Assembly: GCA_026395755.1 (NCBI GenBank)
Contig: JAPLYC010000067.1
Span: 1 to 40,061 of the forward strand
Direction: 5' to 3'
DNA: 40,061 bases
DNA from: Candidatus Parcubacteria bacterium
GTDB taxonomy: Bacteria; Patescibacteriota; Patescibacteriia; CAIXNZ01
The number at the start of each line of letters is the position of its first letter. Positions within the stretch are counted from its first letter, which is position 1. Positions 18,830 to 31,752 of the stretch are shown piece by piece. Under the pieces are notes generated by a model, which ran no database searches, had not been told where the DNA came from, and saw only the letters and a program-made list of their open reading frames with translations. Position numbers and translations under genes: made by a program.

Positions 18830-19870
18830 TTAGATATTAAGGTTCGGATCCACCTTCACATTGCGCCAAGATTCGCTAAACCTATTCAGACCATGTTGAG
18901 CCTCAAAATAAGCTGCTACTGCTACCATTAAAGCATTGTCAGTGGTCAAATGCAAGTCGGGCTGGAAAAATTTTACCTGAGGCAATTTGGCTGCGGCTTG
19001 CGCTGATAATTGTTTCCTTAGTTCCTTATTGGCAGCTACACCACCGCCGAGTAATAAAGATTTGACTTCATACTTTTCCGCTGCTCTTAAAGTCTTGGCT
19101 ACCAAGACATCAATACTCGCCTGCTGAAATGCTGCGCACATATTGCGAATGGCTTTTTCATCCTGGAATCGGACTTTTTCCCATTCATTTCTGACCGCAG
19201 TTTTTAATCCGGAAAAACTAAAATCAAAATCCTTGGAATAAATCATGGGGCGCGGTAATTTATAAAAATCCTTATCTGCATTGGCCGCATGTTTGGAAAT
19301 AATGGGTCCGCCAGGATAACCCAGGCCCATGATTTTAGCAGCCTTATCAAAAGCTTCACCAACTGCATCGTCACGGGTTGAACCAATAGTCTTAAAATTA
19401 TTCGGATCATTAAGTAAAACCAAAGAAGTATGACCGCCTGAAACCACCAAACATAAAGCCGGATATTTAATATCTTCCAATTCACCCTGATCACCCTTTA
19501 AATAATTAGCCAGAATATGAGCCTTAACATGATTAACCGGAATTAATGGCTTATTCCAGACCATGGCCAAAGTCTTGGCTGTTTCCACCCCGACAATTAA
19601 TGAAGTAATTAAACCGGGACCATAAACTACTCCGATAGCATCTATATCCTCCTGTTTAATCTTTGCCTGCTTCATAGCCTTATCTAAAATAGGCAGCATA
19701 TTTTCCAAATGCTTGCGTGCTGCTACTTCAGGCACGACTCCTCCATATTTTTTATGGATATTAATCTGCGAAGCAACAAAATTTGCCAGAACTTTAAACT
19801 TCTGGTTAATAATTTCTAATATAGCCACCGCGGTTTCGTCGCAGGACGATTCAATAGATAAAATTATCAT
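18830..19870 (-). CDS. tsaD: tRNA N6-adenosine threonylcarbamoyltransferase TsaD
   Basis: Kae1/Qri7-family enzyme that transfers threonylcarbamoyl to A37 of tRNA; 346 residues, standard length. The signature SIESSCDETAVAIL is at the N-terminus, followed by GVVPEVAARKHLENMLP. The metal-binding His pair is in NHVKAHILANYL near residues 112-116, then VVSGGHTSLVLL and the C-terminal nucleotide-binding LLLGGGVAANKELR. A late TTDNALMVAVAAYF carries the metal Asp. The start ATG is SD-less, 7 nt downstream of the RAYT stop. It pairs functionally with tsaE; tsaB and tsaC are not in the window. Confidence 0.97.
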   Translation of the reverse strand: MIILSIESSCDETAVAILEIINQKFKVLANFVASQINIHKKYGGVVPEVAARKHLENMLPILDKAMKQAKIKQEDIDAIGVVYGPGLITSLIVGVETAKTLAMVWNKPLIPVNHVKAHILANYLKGDQGELEDIKYPALCLVVSGGHTSLVLLNDPNNFKTIGSTRDDAVGEAFDKAAKIMGLGYPGGPIISKHAANADKDFYKLPRPMIYSKDFDFSFSGLKTAVRNEWEKVRFQDEKAIRNMCAAFQQASIDVLVAKTLRAAEKYEVKSLLLGGGVAANKELRKQLSAQAAAKLPQVKFFQPDLHLTTDNALMVAVAAYFEAQHGLNRFSESWRNVKVDPNLNI

Positions 19871-19877
19871 AATTTAA

Positions 19878-20492
19878 TTAGTAATCACTTATTAACTCGG
19901 GGTAATTAGTAAAGATATATTTATAATTTATCGCATCGGGAATTTGATGCTTCATCGGGTTTTCAGAAATATATCGTATATGTTCGTCAAAGTCCCGTTG
20001 ATTACGAATATAGTGGTCGCGATATGACTTCTGCCAATGGAATTTAGAAAATTGAGTTTGATTTAATTCGTATTTGGTAATAAATTGTTGGCGCAATTCA
20101 ATCTTTCTCAGGGTAAACGCCTCAATTTCATTTTGTAAACCCTTATATATATCCCCTAGACGAAGAAGCGATTGGCCAATCGCTTCTTCGTCTAGGGCGG
20201 TGTAACCCAAAATGAAATTAATATTACGAGTAAAATGTCTTTTTAAAAATTGCATTATTTTGGATAAATCCCTTGATTCATTTGGAAAAAACATCAAATG
20301 AAAATGGTCTAACAATATTACAAAAGCAAAAAGATCCAGATTTTTCATTTTCTTAACCAACCGTAATTCCTCAATAAACAATTCGCAAAAAATCGGTTCT
20401 TTAAAATATTCAACCAGATTATTGGCAACCGAGATAACAAAATATGTCGCGCCATCAAAAAATATTCTTTTTTGAGCCCCCTTGTGTAACAT
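19878..20492 (-). CDS. REP-associated tyrosine transposase (RAYT; Y1/HUH family, IS200-like)
   Basis: 204 residues from the ATG at 20492; an in-frame TTG at 20528 adds 12 residues. The fold is the single-stranded-DNA Y1 transposase type that mobilises or maintains short palindromic REP sequences. The HUH motif is seen as H63-F-H65 in LLDHFHLMF. The catalytic tyrosine candidate is Y174 in the family C-terminus DHYIRNQRDFDEHIRYISENP. The early strand KRIFFDGATYFVISV is typical. Residues ~99-113 are encoded by a perfect 44-bp palindrome (20154-20197), in an expanded central region compared with short RAYTs. There is no partner accessory gene and no IS-type ends were found, so this is a domesticated or REP-type copy. 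tsaD begins 7 nt downstream. Confidence 0.88.
   Translation of the reverse strand: MLHKGAQKRIFFDGATYFVISVANNLVEYFKEPIFCELFIEELRLVKKMKNLDLFAFVILLDHFHLMFFPNESRDLSKIMQFLKRHFTRNINFILGYTALDEEAIGQSLLRLGDIYKGLQNEIEAFTLRKIELRQQFITKYELNQTQFSKFHWQKSYRDHYIRNQRDFDEHIRYISENPMKHQIPDAINYKYIFTNYPELISDY
20154..20197. repeat. Perfect 44-bp palindrome inside the RAYT coding sequence
   Basis: Two 22-nt arms with no spacer, centred on GGCC at 20174-20177 (arms begin CCCTAGACGAAG). It stays in frame and encodes residues ~99-113 of the transposase. It could form a cruciform or a very stable mRNA hairpin. Confidence 0.95.
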
Positions 20493-21992: not shown

Positions 21993-22064
21993 GCCGCCAT
22001 CGTCTAGTGGTTAGGACACTAGGTTTTCATCCTAGTAACAGGGGTCCGATTCCCCTTGGCGGTA
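21993..22064 (+). tRNA. tRNA-Glu (anticodon TTC)
   Basis: Cloverleaf by eye: acceptor GCCGCCA pairs with TGGCGGT (terminal G-U), the anticodon stem CTAGG/CCTAG encloses loop TTTTCAT, giving anticodon TTC, and the T arm AGGGG/CCCCT encloses TCCGATT. The discriminator is A and CCA is not encoded. A promoter and a terminator flank it as a single-gene unit. Confidence 0.95.
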
Positions 22065-31184: not shown

Positions 31185-31314
31185 GGGGGAGAAATTGTAC
31201 AACGTTACAATTTCTCCCCCACTTACTTTCTTTATATAACGTTCGGAGCTAAGCTCTCGGTACCGAGAGCTTAGCTCCGGGCATTAATCGAAGATTAAAG
31301 TTAGTTCTTTAAAA
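31185..31314 (+). promoter_or_regulatory. Structured intergenic element (copy P2) with a 36-bp perfect palindrome and boxA-like motif
   Basis: Hairpin A (31185-31220: GGGGGAGAAATTGTA/TACAATTTCTCCCCC), then a perfect 36-bp palindrome (31244-31279, centre GGTACC), then boxA-like AGTTCTTTAAAA (31303-31314). The start of the next gene is further away because a second repeat (31327-31399) is inserted. Confidence 0.7.
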
Positions 31315-31326
31315 ATAAAATATAAA

Positions 31327-31399
31327 CTTATACCCCACTTTAGTGGGCGCCGTCCACAAAAATCGTGCTTATTGGGCGCCTGCTAAAGCAGGGTATAAG
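31327..31399. repeat. 73-bp paired-hairpin repeat (BIME/MITE-like)
   Basis: Outer arms CTTATACCC and GGGTATAAG; inside, two hairpins CCACTTTAGTGG and CCTGCTAAAGCAGG face each other, each with a GGCGCC block. The halves are inverted copies with compensatory CA/TG to TG/CA changes. It fits the look of two inverted REP units and a RAYT gene exists at 19878-20492. Confidence 0.7.
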
Positions 31400-31434
31400 T
31401 GATACTTCTAAATTTCTAAAAGGAGGTACTAGCC

Positions 31435-31752
31435 ATGAACGACCGAATCGCGGAACTCACGAGAACCATTGACGACTCTGATACCAAACTTAAACGAGCT
31501 CGGGAAGAATTATCCCGAATTCGCAGTAGCTGCCTACACCAATGGGGACCGGTCAGGGATTGCTCTGAATATAAACCGGCCTATGATATTCCCGGTGATC
31601 CTCCCGGCACCATGGGCGTGGACTGGCGGCCCGGCTGCCATGTTCCTGCCCAAACCATTGAAAAATGGCAAAGAACCTGCCGGCTCTGTGGGCTGACCGA
31701 AACAACCACAGAAACTAATCAACAAGTTACCCACACCCCGAGATTTCGCTAA
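31435..31752 (+). CDS. Small coiled-coil/zinc-finger-like protein, 105 aa
   Basis: An N-terminal coiled coil (residues 1-32, IAELTRTIDDSDTKLKRARE) is followed by SCLHQWGPVRDCSEYK, with Cys and His ligands, and WQRTCRLCGLTETTTE with CxxC. The C-x-H plus CxxC layout suggests one zinc site. I recognise the pattern 'SCxHxWG...WxRTCxxCGxxE' from small proteins of CPR and phage genomes, function unknown. The SD AAAGGAGG is strong. It is the last gene before a terminator and a new promoter (31830-31858). Confidence 0.72.
   Translation: MNDRIAELTRTIDDSDTKLKRAREELSRIRSSCLHQWGPVRDCSEYKPAYDIPGDPPGTMGVDWRPGCHVPAQTIEKWQRTCRLCGLTETTTETNQQVTHTPRFR

Follow-up and report, generated by a model that had tools for sequence, protein, structure and literature searches.

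An in-frame palindrome of REP type inside a Patescibacterial RAYT gene, and its covariation with the encoded enzyme

Which REP a RAYT chooses, and the pairing of one REP family with one RAYT, have been settled biochemically for few enzymes only. The stretch of DNA analyzed here (the window, 40,061 nucleotides) contains a RAYT gene that carries a long perfect palindrome in its own reading frame, and so raises the question of whether the palindrome is a substrate of the enzyme, a regulatory structure, a part of the protein, or a passenger. To answer it, we compared the gene with its relatives, searched genomes for further copies of the palindrome, and analyzed how palindrome and protein vary together.

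The RAYT gene and its palindrome

The first-pass annotation of this DNA had described a spacerless 44-bp palindrome in frame in the gene, which we confirmed at codons 99-113. It is the one perfect spacerless 44-bp palindrome in the window, and the expectation that 22-nt arms pair perfectly by chance anywhere in 40 kb is about 40,000 x 4^-22, roughly 2e-9. According to the ORF listing of the window, the 204-aa frame at 19878-20492 (minus strand) stays open across it. The features of the locus are as follows.

18830..19870, minus strand: tsaD, neighbor of the RAYT gene (from the ORF list)
19878..20492, minus strand: RAYT / TnpA_REP (Y1 HUH nuclease) gene, 204 aa, ATG start at 20492
19971..19973, minus strand: catalytic tyrosine Y174 in YISENP, class-2 Y---NP signature (signature as given in PMC6006769)
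20154..20197, no strand: 44-bp perfect palindrome CCCTAGACGAAGAAGCGATTGGCCAATCGCTTCTTCGTCTAGGG, no spacer, codons 99-113 of the RAYT gene
20154..20161, no strand: left outer arm CCCTAGAC, particular to the window copy, self-complementary with the right outer arm
20162..20189, no strand: 28-bp REP core GAAGAAGCGATT-GGCC-AATCGCTTCTTC, with foot GAAG/CTTC, 12-bp stem, and the central 4 nt as predicted hairpin loop
20190..20197, no strand: right outer arm GTCTAGGG, pairing with the left outer arm
20223..20252, minus strand: codons 81-90 of helix alphaC (QFLKRHFTRN), of which residues 81, 82, 85, 86, 89, and 90 covary with stem positions 9-12 and the loop
20298..20306, minus strand: HUH motif H63-F64-H65, from the protein sequence
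20472..20474, minus strand: codon 7 (Q), covarying with the foot tetranucleotide

The ORF was matched by Pfam Y1_Tnp (E=2e-6), which places it among the Y1/HUH transposases, and its product scored 87.3 bits against a cut-off of 80 with the NCBIfam equivalog NF047646 (REP_Tyr_transpos, 'REP-associated tyrosine transposase'). The best PDB sequence match was Escherichia coli TnpA_REP (4er8), and the same entry, a TnpA_REP-REP hairpin complex, was the top Foldseek match (E=6.8e-07) of an AlphaFold model of the protein (mean pLDDT 87). The HUH motif reads DHFH in full, and Y---NP is described as a class-2 signature in the part of PMC6006769 drawn on here. The HUH motif, the Y---NP signature, the NCBIfam profile, and the fold together demonstrate that the ORF product is a RAYT/TnpA_REP of class 2 Y1. 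In the model, the palindrome-encoded residues form a disordered loop (pLDDT below 50 at 106-111) flanked by helix alphaC (76-95) and an extra helix (113-141) preceding beta4 (158-161), about 10 codons downstream of alphaC residues 81-90. In one relative (L057), the palindrome makes up practically the whole alphaC-beta4 insert. An Rfam search matched no RNA family at the palindrome; it did identify a tRNA gene at 21993-22064 (RF00005, 63 bits).

The HUH/Y1 fold and, by prediction, the recognition of single-stranded DNA hairpins are shared with IS200/IS605 elements (IS608, ISDra2). Each of those elements is a complete, mobile insertion sequence whose hairpins are subterminal, whereas the window holds a single gene with an internal hairpin. 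No IS ends were identified around the gene, and the source draft genome (1.46 Mb, 120 contigs) contains, besides the window gene, a single 41%-identical paralogue on contig C90 and no near-identical mobile copies with defined ends. Assignment to an IS200/IS605 insertion sequence was therefore rejected.

Conservation of the palindrome among relatives

Relatives were collected from named contigs and from genomes, several hundred in number, that belong to the class and phylum of the source genome; those found in named records belong to Patescibacteria (Falkowbacteria, Gracilibacteria, Peregrinibacteria, and others). All 40 family members that read through the region have a spacerless palindrome of 28 bp there, identically placed and always in one codon phase. 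It is perfect in 34 of them and has one or two unpaired positions in the remainder, so that about nine of 560 cells are unpaired altogether. The conserved unit is thus the inner 28 bp (20162-20189) and not the 44 bp, the outer 8+8 bp being individual to the window copy. Across the clade, the unit is laid out as G[A/T]AG, 8 nt, a 4-nt center, and the complement, giving a 12-bp stem and a 4-nt loop with a foot at both ends; the foot is mostly GAAG, and GTAG in part of the clade only. When homologues were aligned at residues 99-113, as the first-pass annotation had proposed, they did not encode the same residues without a palindrome, but other residues with a different palindrome at the equivalent site. 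Three more sequences, L101, L107, and L116, fall inside the window clade on the tree. The L107 gene has a perfect in-gene palindrome of another type, and a GNAG-type core is absent from the L101 and L116 genes; we therefore call the feature near-universal rather than universal.

These results bear on the proposal, made from the window alone, that the palindrome is an inserted target hairpin. Recent insertion of a stray hairpin is rejected, since 40 of 40 relatives carry one, and 'inserted' holds only in the deep sense that the palindrome is ancestral and near-universal in this RAYT clade. The other half of the proposal, that the palindrome is a target, is well supported by its conserved position and by the dispersed copies and the covariation with DNA-contact residues described below. 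The RAYT-tsaD pair occurs also in a different genus (genome G004, locus L042; RAYT 58% and tsaD 70% identical), which indicates that the gene has long been inherited vertically at one locus and has retained its palindrome. The draft is a metagenome-type assembly with 6.6% contamination, from which an inverted chimera might have arisen, or the pairing might be due to chance. We consider the probability of this negligible: the architecture recurs independently, with differing sequence, in dozens of genomes and assemblies, which already refutes it, and the syntenic orthologue beside tsaD has a palindrome as well.

Pairing is kept while the sequence changes. In 30 distinct cores, drawn mostly from the perfect ones, 99.7% of cells are paired, with 79 double-sided and 0 one-sided changes, whereas a slid-partner control on the same cores gave 39-47%. 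When the same peptides were redrawn with synonymous codons, 7.3 of 14 positions were paired and none of 8,000 redraws was perfect, against an observed 13.8 of 14 with 34 of 40 perfect. Since synonymous redraws never recreate the palindrome, it is the DNA that is constrained and not the peptide.

A role at the protein level is unlikely, in which the encoded peptide, [E/V]G-x5-[R/L]L, would be part of the hairpin-recognition surface and DNA and peptide would both be used. The invariant codon phase and the peptide ends, which stay [EV]G....RL-like, are consistent with it, as is the fact that the alphaC-beta4 region adjoins the hairpin-binding region in E. coli TnpA_REP (according to the part of PMC6006769 drawn on here). 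On the other hand, the segment is predicted to be disordered, third codon positions obey the palindrome too, and more distant RAYTs with other hairpins in the same loop encode different peptides.

The first-pass annotation had also considered a self-regulatory or mRNA-structure role, for which we obtained no positive support and which is not needed to account for the data. The hairpin would act in the transcript, through pausing or translation attenuation, or as an autoregulatory site bound by RAYT. A stem of 12-22 bp in coding mRNA would be very stable, and IS200-type genes, which use RNA structure for control, offer a precedent. Nevertheless, G-U pairs, which RNA permits, number 0 among 360 stem cells, the palindrome lies mid-gene, away from the translation start, and the core is also dispersed independently of the RAYT gene, mostly in intergenic DNA. 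In addition, coupling to DNA-contact residues would be left unexplained unless the site were autoregulatory. We regard this role as quite improbable.

The HUH motif of clade members is usually DHxH, and HUN or NHxH in others. HUN replaces HUH (DHINL, DHLNL) in L003, L009, L014, L015, L052, and others; metal binding or activity may differ in these members, and not all may be active.

Dispersed copies and other repeats

The exact 20-nt arm occurs once in the source genome, so that the search for further copies of the arm, suggested in the first-pass annotation, was negative for the exact sequence and positive for related 28-bp cores. A core-pattern search of the genome found nine further places; one is in frame within an O-antigen-ligase-like gene, and the other eight lie in intergenic DNA or at the edges of genes. 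Two are of the window type GAAG..GCGATT, and most others are of the GTAGGCGACAC type of the C90 paralogue. Genus and family relatives likewise have dispersed cores, about 20 of them in G004, and the exact 28-mer core of the window recurs only in another genus, at G004:C62. Copies number about 1-20 per genome, which is few compared with classical REPs. With a stricter pattern, GAAG-foot palindromes were found in 8 of 9 genomes with a strong RAYT-family match and in about 1 of 86 others (Fisher 7e-10, with the strong-match cut-off picked afterwards). Dispersed copies are closer to the in-gene cores of their own genome than expected when assignments are shuffled (p about 0.02), with a poor fit in G005 and G020, where many dispersed copies are not close to the sampled in-gene cores. 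On sequence grounds, the dispersed palindromes are REP elements (a 28-bp unit, inside the 20-40 nt span of REPs, with a GNAG foot, multicopy, mostly intergenic), and the RAYT gene carries one REP of its own.

Outside the RAYT genes, the window REP family was observed in frame in two others, one O-antigen-ligase-like and one PHP-domain-like (L063/L144 and L141/L155), at orthologous places in different genera; these copies lie in another codon phase than in RAYT and encode RRSDxxIASS. The outer arms of REP cores vary between copies and are nonetheless self-complementary, with a mean run of 2.8-3.3 bp against 0.33 by chance, and a third of the copies have a run of 4 or more. Such arms could have come from REPs landing at the centers of existing palindromes or from one arm having been copied in place onto its partner. 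L003 has a perfect palindrome of 66 bp immediately upstream of its RAYT gene, sharing its core with the in-gene palindrome, and L005 has a similar one of 34 bp.

The strongest rival to a functional placement is a passenger REP, which would have found its way into a loop of an ancestral RAYT that tolerates insertions and would have no role in the gene. Pairing would then be kept by hairpin-templated (template-switch) correction or by gene conversion from dispersed REPs, and alphaC would covary only because both helix and palindrome track the REPs of the genome. We regard this as quite possible, though somewhat short of an even chance. The palindrome sits in a disordered loop (the low-pLDDT stretch at 106-111), the REP family persists outside RAYT, being maintained in frame at orthologous places of two unrelated genes in two genera, and the self-complementary outer arms are what in-place arm copying would give. 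Furthermore, one-sided intermediates are lacking among the 30 distinct cores. On the other hand, presence in 40 of 40 members in one codon phase over a deep clade is hard to explain if the palindrome is dispensable, and REPs in other genes are sporadic. Both this reading and the one we prefer, that enzyme and substrate are kept together in one gene, take the palindrome for the cognate REP of the enzyme.

Two other repeats of the window were examined. A paired-hairpin element, ACTTATACCCCACTTTAGTGGGCGCC ... GGCGCCTGCTAAAGCAGGGTATAAGT, lies at 31326-31400, upstream of an ORF near 31436. The first-pass annotation had named it, at 31327-31399, as a possible other RAYT substrate. It belongs to a different family, without a GNAG foot and unrelated to the core, and was rejected as a RAYT substrate. 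Its left arm matches 10 places of the genome with up to 3 mismatches, and the stems of the family change in pairs (CCCCAC/GTGGG, CCCCTC/GAGGG, CCTCAC/GTGAG); it is a separate dispersed, MITE-like repeat family. At 31237-31286 there is a 50-bp spacerless near-palindrome (88%), for which the genome has a single further palindromic site, C8:44585-44620.

Covariation of enzyme and palindrome

Differences in each protein column were compared with differences in the palindrome by partial correlation, with the rest of the protein controlled for. Stem positions 9-12 picked out Q81 (z 4.9) and R85 (3.0), and the loop picked out R85 (z 5.4), H86 (4.2), N90 (3.6), F82 (3.3), and R89 (2.0). The five top columns for the loop, out of 145, all lie within alphaC (P = 3e-5 by count), and by helical spacing the loop-tracking residues share one face of the helix. 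The foot picked out Q7 (z 4.9), H160 (2.5), and D159 (2.1), of which H160 and D159 are next to beta4. The alphaC signals survived thinning to N=29 and N=19. In a parsimony test on a tree made without alphaC and the loop, stem positions 10-12 changed on the same branch as residue 81 nine times (null 4.3, p=0.002) and as residue 85 eight times (p=0.015), and the foot changed with residue 7 six times (null 2.4, p=0.008); as in all these comparisons, the pairs were picked with the alignment in view, and p values are uncorrected for multiple testing. Residue 93, for which no DNA contact is expected, co-changed with the stem too (p=0.0014), so that some linkage or segment exchange is possible, and exchange of short segments could contribute to the covariation.

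Individual comparisons show the same switches arising independently. The close relatives L003 and L134 have QF..RH with CATT and KS..EN with CACG, respectively, and two genes of one genome (G061), L012 and L048, have QF..RH with GATT and KS..EN with CACG. L136 and L133, also from one genome, are identical at 57 of 74 and 35 of 47 residues outside the segment and at 1 of 10 within 81-90, whereas L136 has 8 of 10 residues at 81-90 in common with the distant L020, and the stems of both end in CAA. At residues 91-96, nearer the palindrome, 1 of 6 is common, against 8 of 10 at 81-90. Linkage or a gene-conversion tract as the sole cause is weakened by this failure of most of 91-96 to follow and by the distance of residue 7, whose codon is about 280 nt from the palindrome. 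A link between foot and alphaC (GAAG with QF, GTAG with KS) was also rejected, since L124 and L134 combine KS with a GAAG foot and an ACG stem; this combination indicates that the helix tracks the stem and that the foot tracks residue 7. In the co-crystal of E. coli TnpA_REP, the foot is contacted at beta1 and around beta4, and K82 of alpha3, which aligns with R85 of the window protein, contacts the hairpin (PMC8266576). The covarying positions agree with these contacts. As judged from such correlated changes, the palindrome and the RAYT coevolve, the upper stem and loop with residues 81/82/85/86 and the foot with residue 7 and residues near beta4. Among published open-access articles, we found no report of enzyme-REP covariation.

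From its position, its near-universality, the pairing kept despite changing sequence, the related dispersed copies, and the change correlated with predicted DNA-contact residues, all of which are observed, we consider it probable that the palindrome is the RAYT's own cognate REP, lodged in the alphaC-beta4 loop, and that enzyme and substrate are inherited and change together. As single-stranded DNA, the core would fold into a hairpin of 12-bp stem and 4-nt loop. This double-foot hairpin, G[A/T]AG-stem-loop-stem-CT[A/T]C, would stand in frame in a flexible loop just past the DNA-reading helix, with alphaC (residues 81-90) reading the upper stem and loop, and the N-terminal region and the surroundings of beta4 reading the foot. 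The HUH/Y174 center would nick beside the foot, as nicking near the foot is documented in the literature for E. coli TnpA_REP, and REPs may be mobilized or copied by RAYT, seeding the dispersed copies. With the substrate inside the enzyme gene, enzyme and REP would be inherited together and change together, and this linkage may be the reason for the placement. Binding, nicking, and mobility of the window REP are likewise predictions.

If the in-gene palindrome is the cognate substrate, every gene of the clade is a matched enzyme-substrate pair, so that sequence comparison can yield a recognition code and short oligonucleotides can serve to test it; we see this testable code as the main value of the finding. 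The candidate code suggested by the pairs is QF or HF with ..TT, KS..EN with ACG, H-x with GAT, and F[ST]..KQ with CAA. It would also be simple to explain how a RAYT that is not mobile retains its substrate, which its own coding sequence would carry. A broader proposal, on which our judgment is evenly divided, holds that in one Patescibacterial RAYT lineage a single gene houses both enzyme and substrate, which together form a coupled specificity module with a decodable code and a route to new specificities. On this proposal, the in-gene arrangement would probably have two or more origins. The finding extends RAYT/REP biology to Patescibacteria, for which a search of published open-access articles returned no report of REPs.

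REPs inside RAYT genes are a known phenomenon, reported by Quentin et al. (2018, PMC6006769). In the part of that paper drawn on here, TnpA_REP subclass 2.4 (Bertels group 4) is characterized by an NH[IFV]H motif and by double-foot REPs, with foot GT[AG]G, that stand in frame inside tnpA_REP genes, inserted in a variable region that separates beta3 from alphaC. The window gene resembles this subclass in encoding a Y1 HUH class-2 protein, in its in-frame double-foot REP, and in having related REPs elsewhere in the genome. It differs in the insert, which lies between alphaC (76-95) and beta4 (158-161) rather than between beta3 and alphaC; in the motif, DHFH in the window and usually DHxH in the clade (HUN/NHxH in others) instead of NH[IFV]H; and in the foot, GAAG in the window and mostly so in the clade instead of GT[AG]G. 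That the in-gene REP sits in another loop than that of subclass 2.4 is the reason why the broader proposal includes two or more probable origins. By motif and insert position, L034 and L035, from the same organisms, are likely members of subclass 2.4 and are far from the window clade. On the tree, the window clade (support 0.949) is separate from both; deep branches are poorly supported, and subclass 2.4 is represented by these look-alikes only. The near-universal palindrome and the covarying specificity residues of the window clade also contrast with subclass 2.4, and the same part of the paper reports no enzyme-REP covariation.

E. coli TnpA_REP (REPtron, subclass 2.2; PDB 4er8), the best match in sequence and structure, is alike in its mode of recognition as predicted for the window protein: the region near beta1/beta4 recognizes the foot, and the alpha3/alphaC helix recognizes the hairpin. 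Its REPs flank the gene, whereas that of the window RAYT is inside; the E. coli REP has a bulged stem and an unpaired GTAG foot, and the alphaC-beta4 insertion of the E. coli protein is only short (about 10 aa). Intragenic REPs and Rickettsia palindromic elements are palindromic repeats in frame in coding genes, as described in the part of Di Nocera 2013 (PMC3733652) drawn on here, and the window family is similar in this respect, also through its two non-RAYT genes. The intragenic REPs described there are sporadic in diverse genes and the RAYT genes are REP-flanked, unlike those of the window clade, and that part of the article makes no mention of REPs inside RAYT genes.

In other Patescibacterial RAYT groups (L021, L103, L105, L118-L128, L130), inverted REP-like repeats were observed in the same alphaC-beta4 loop. 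They are often spaced pairs (REPIN-like), and in many of these genes the best inverted repeat beats every synonymous redraw.
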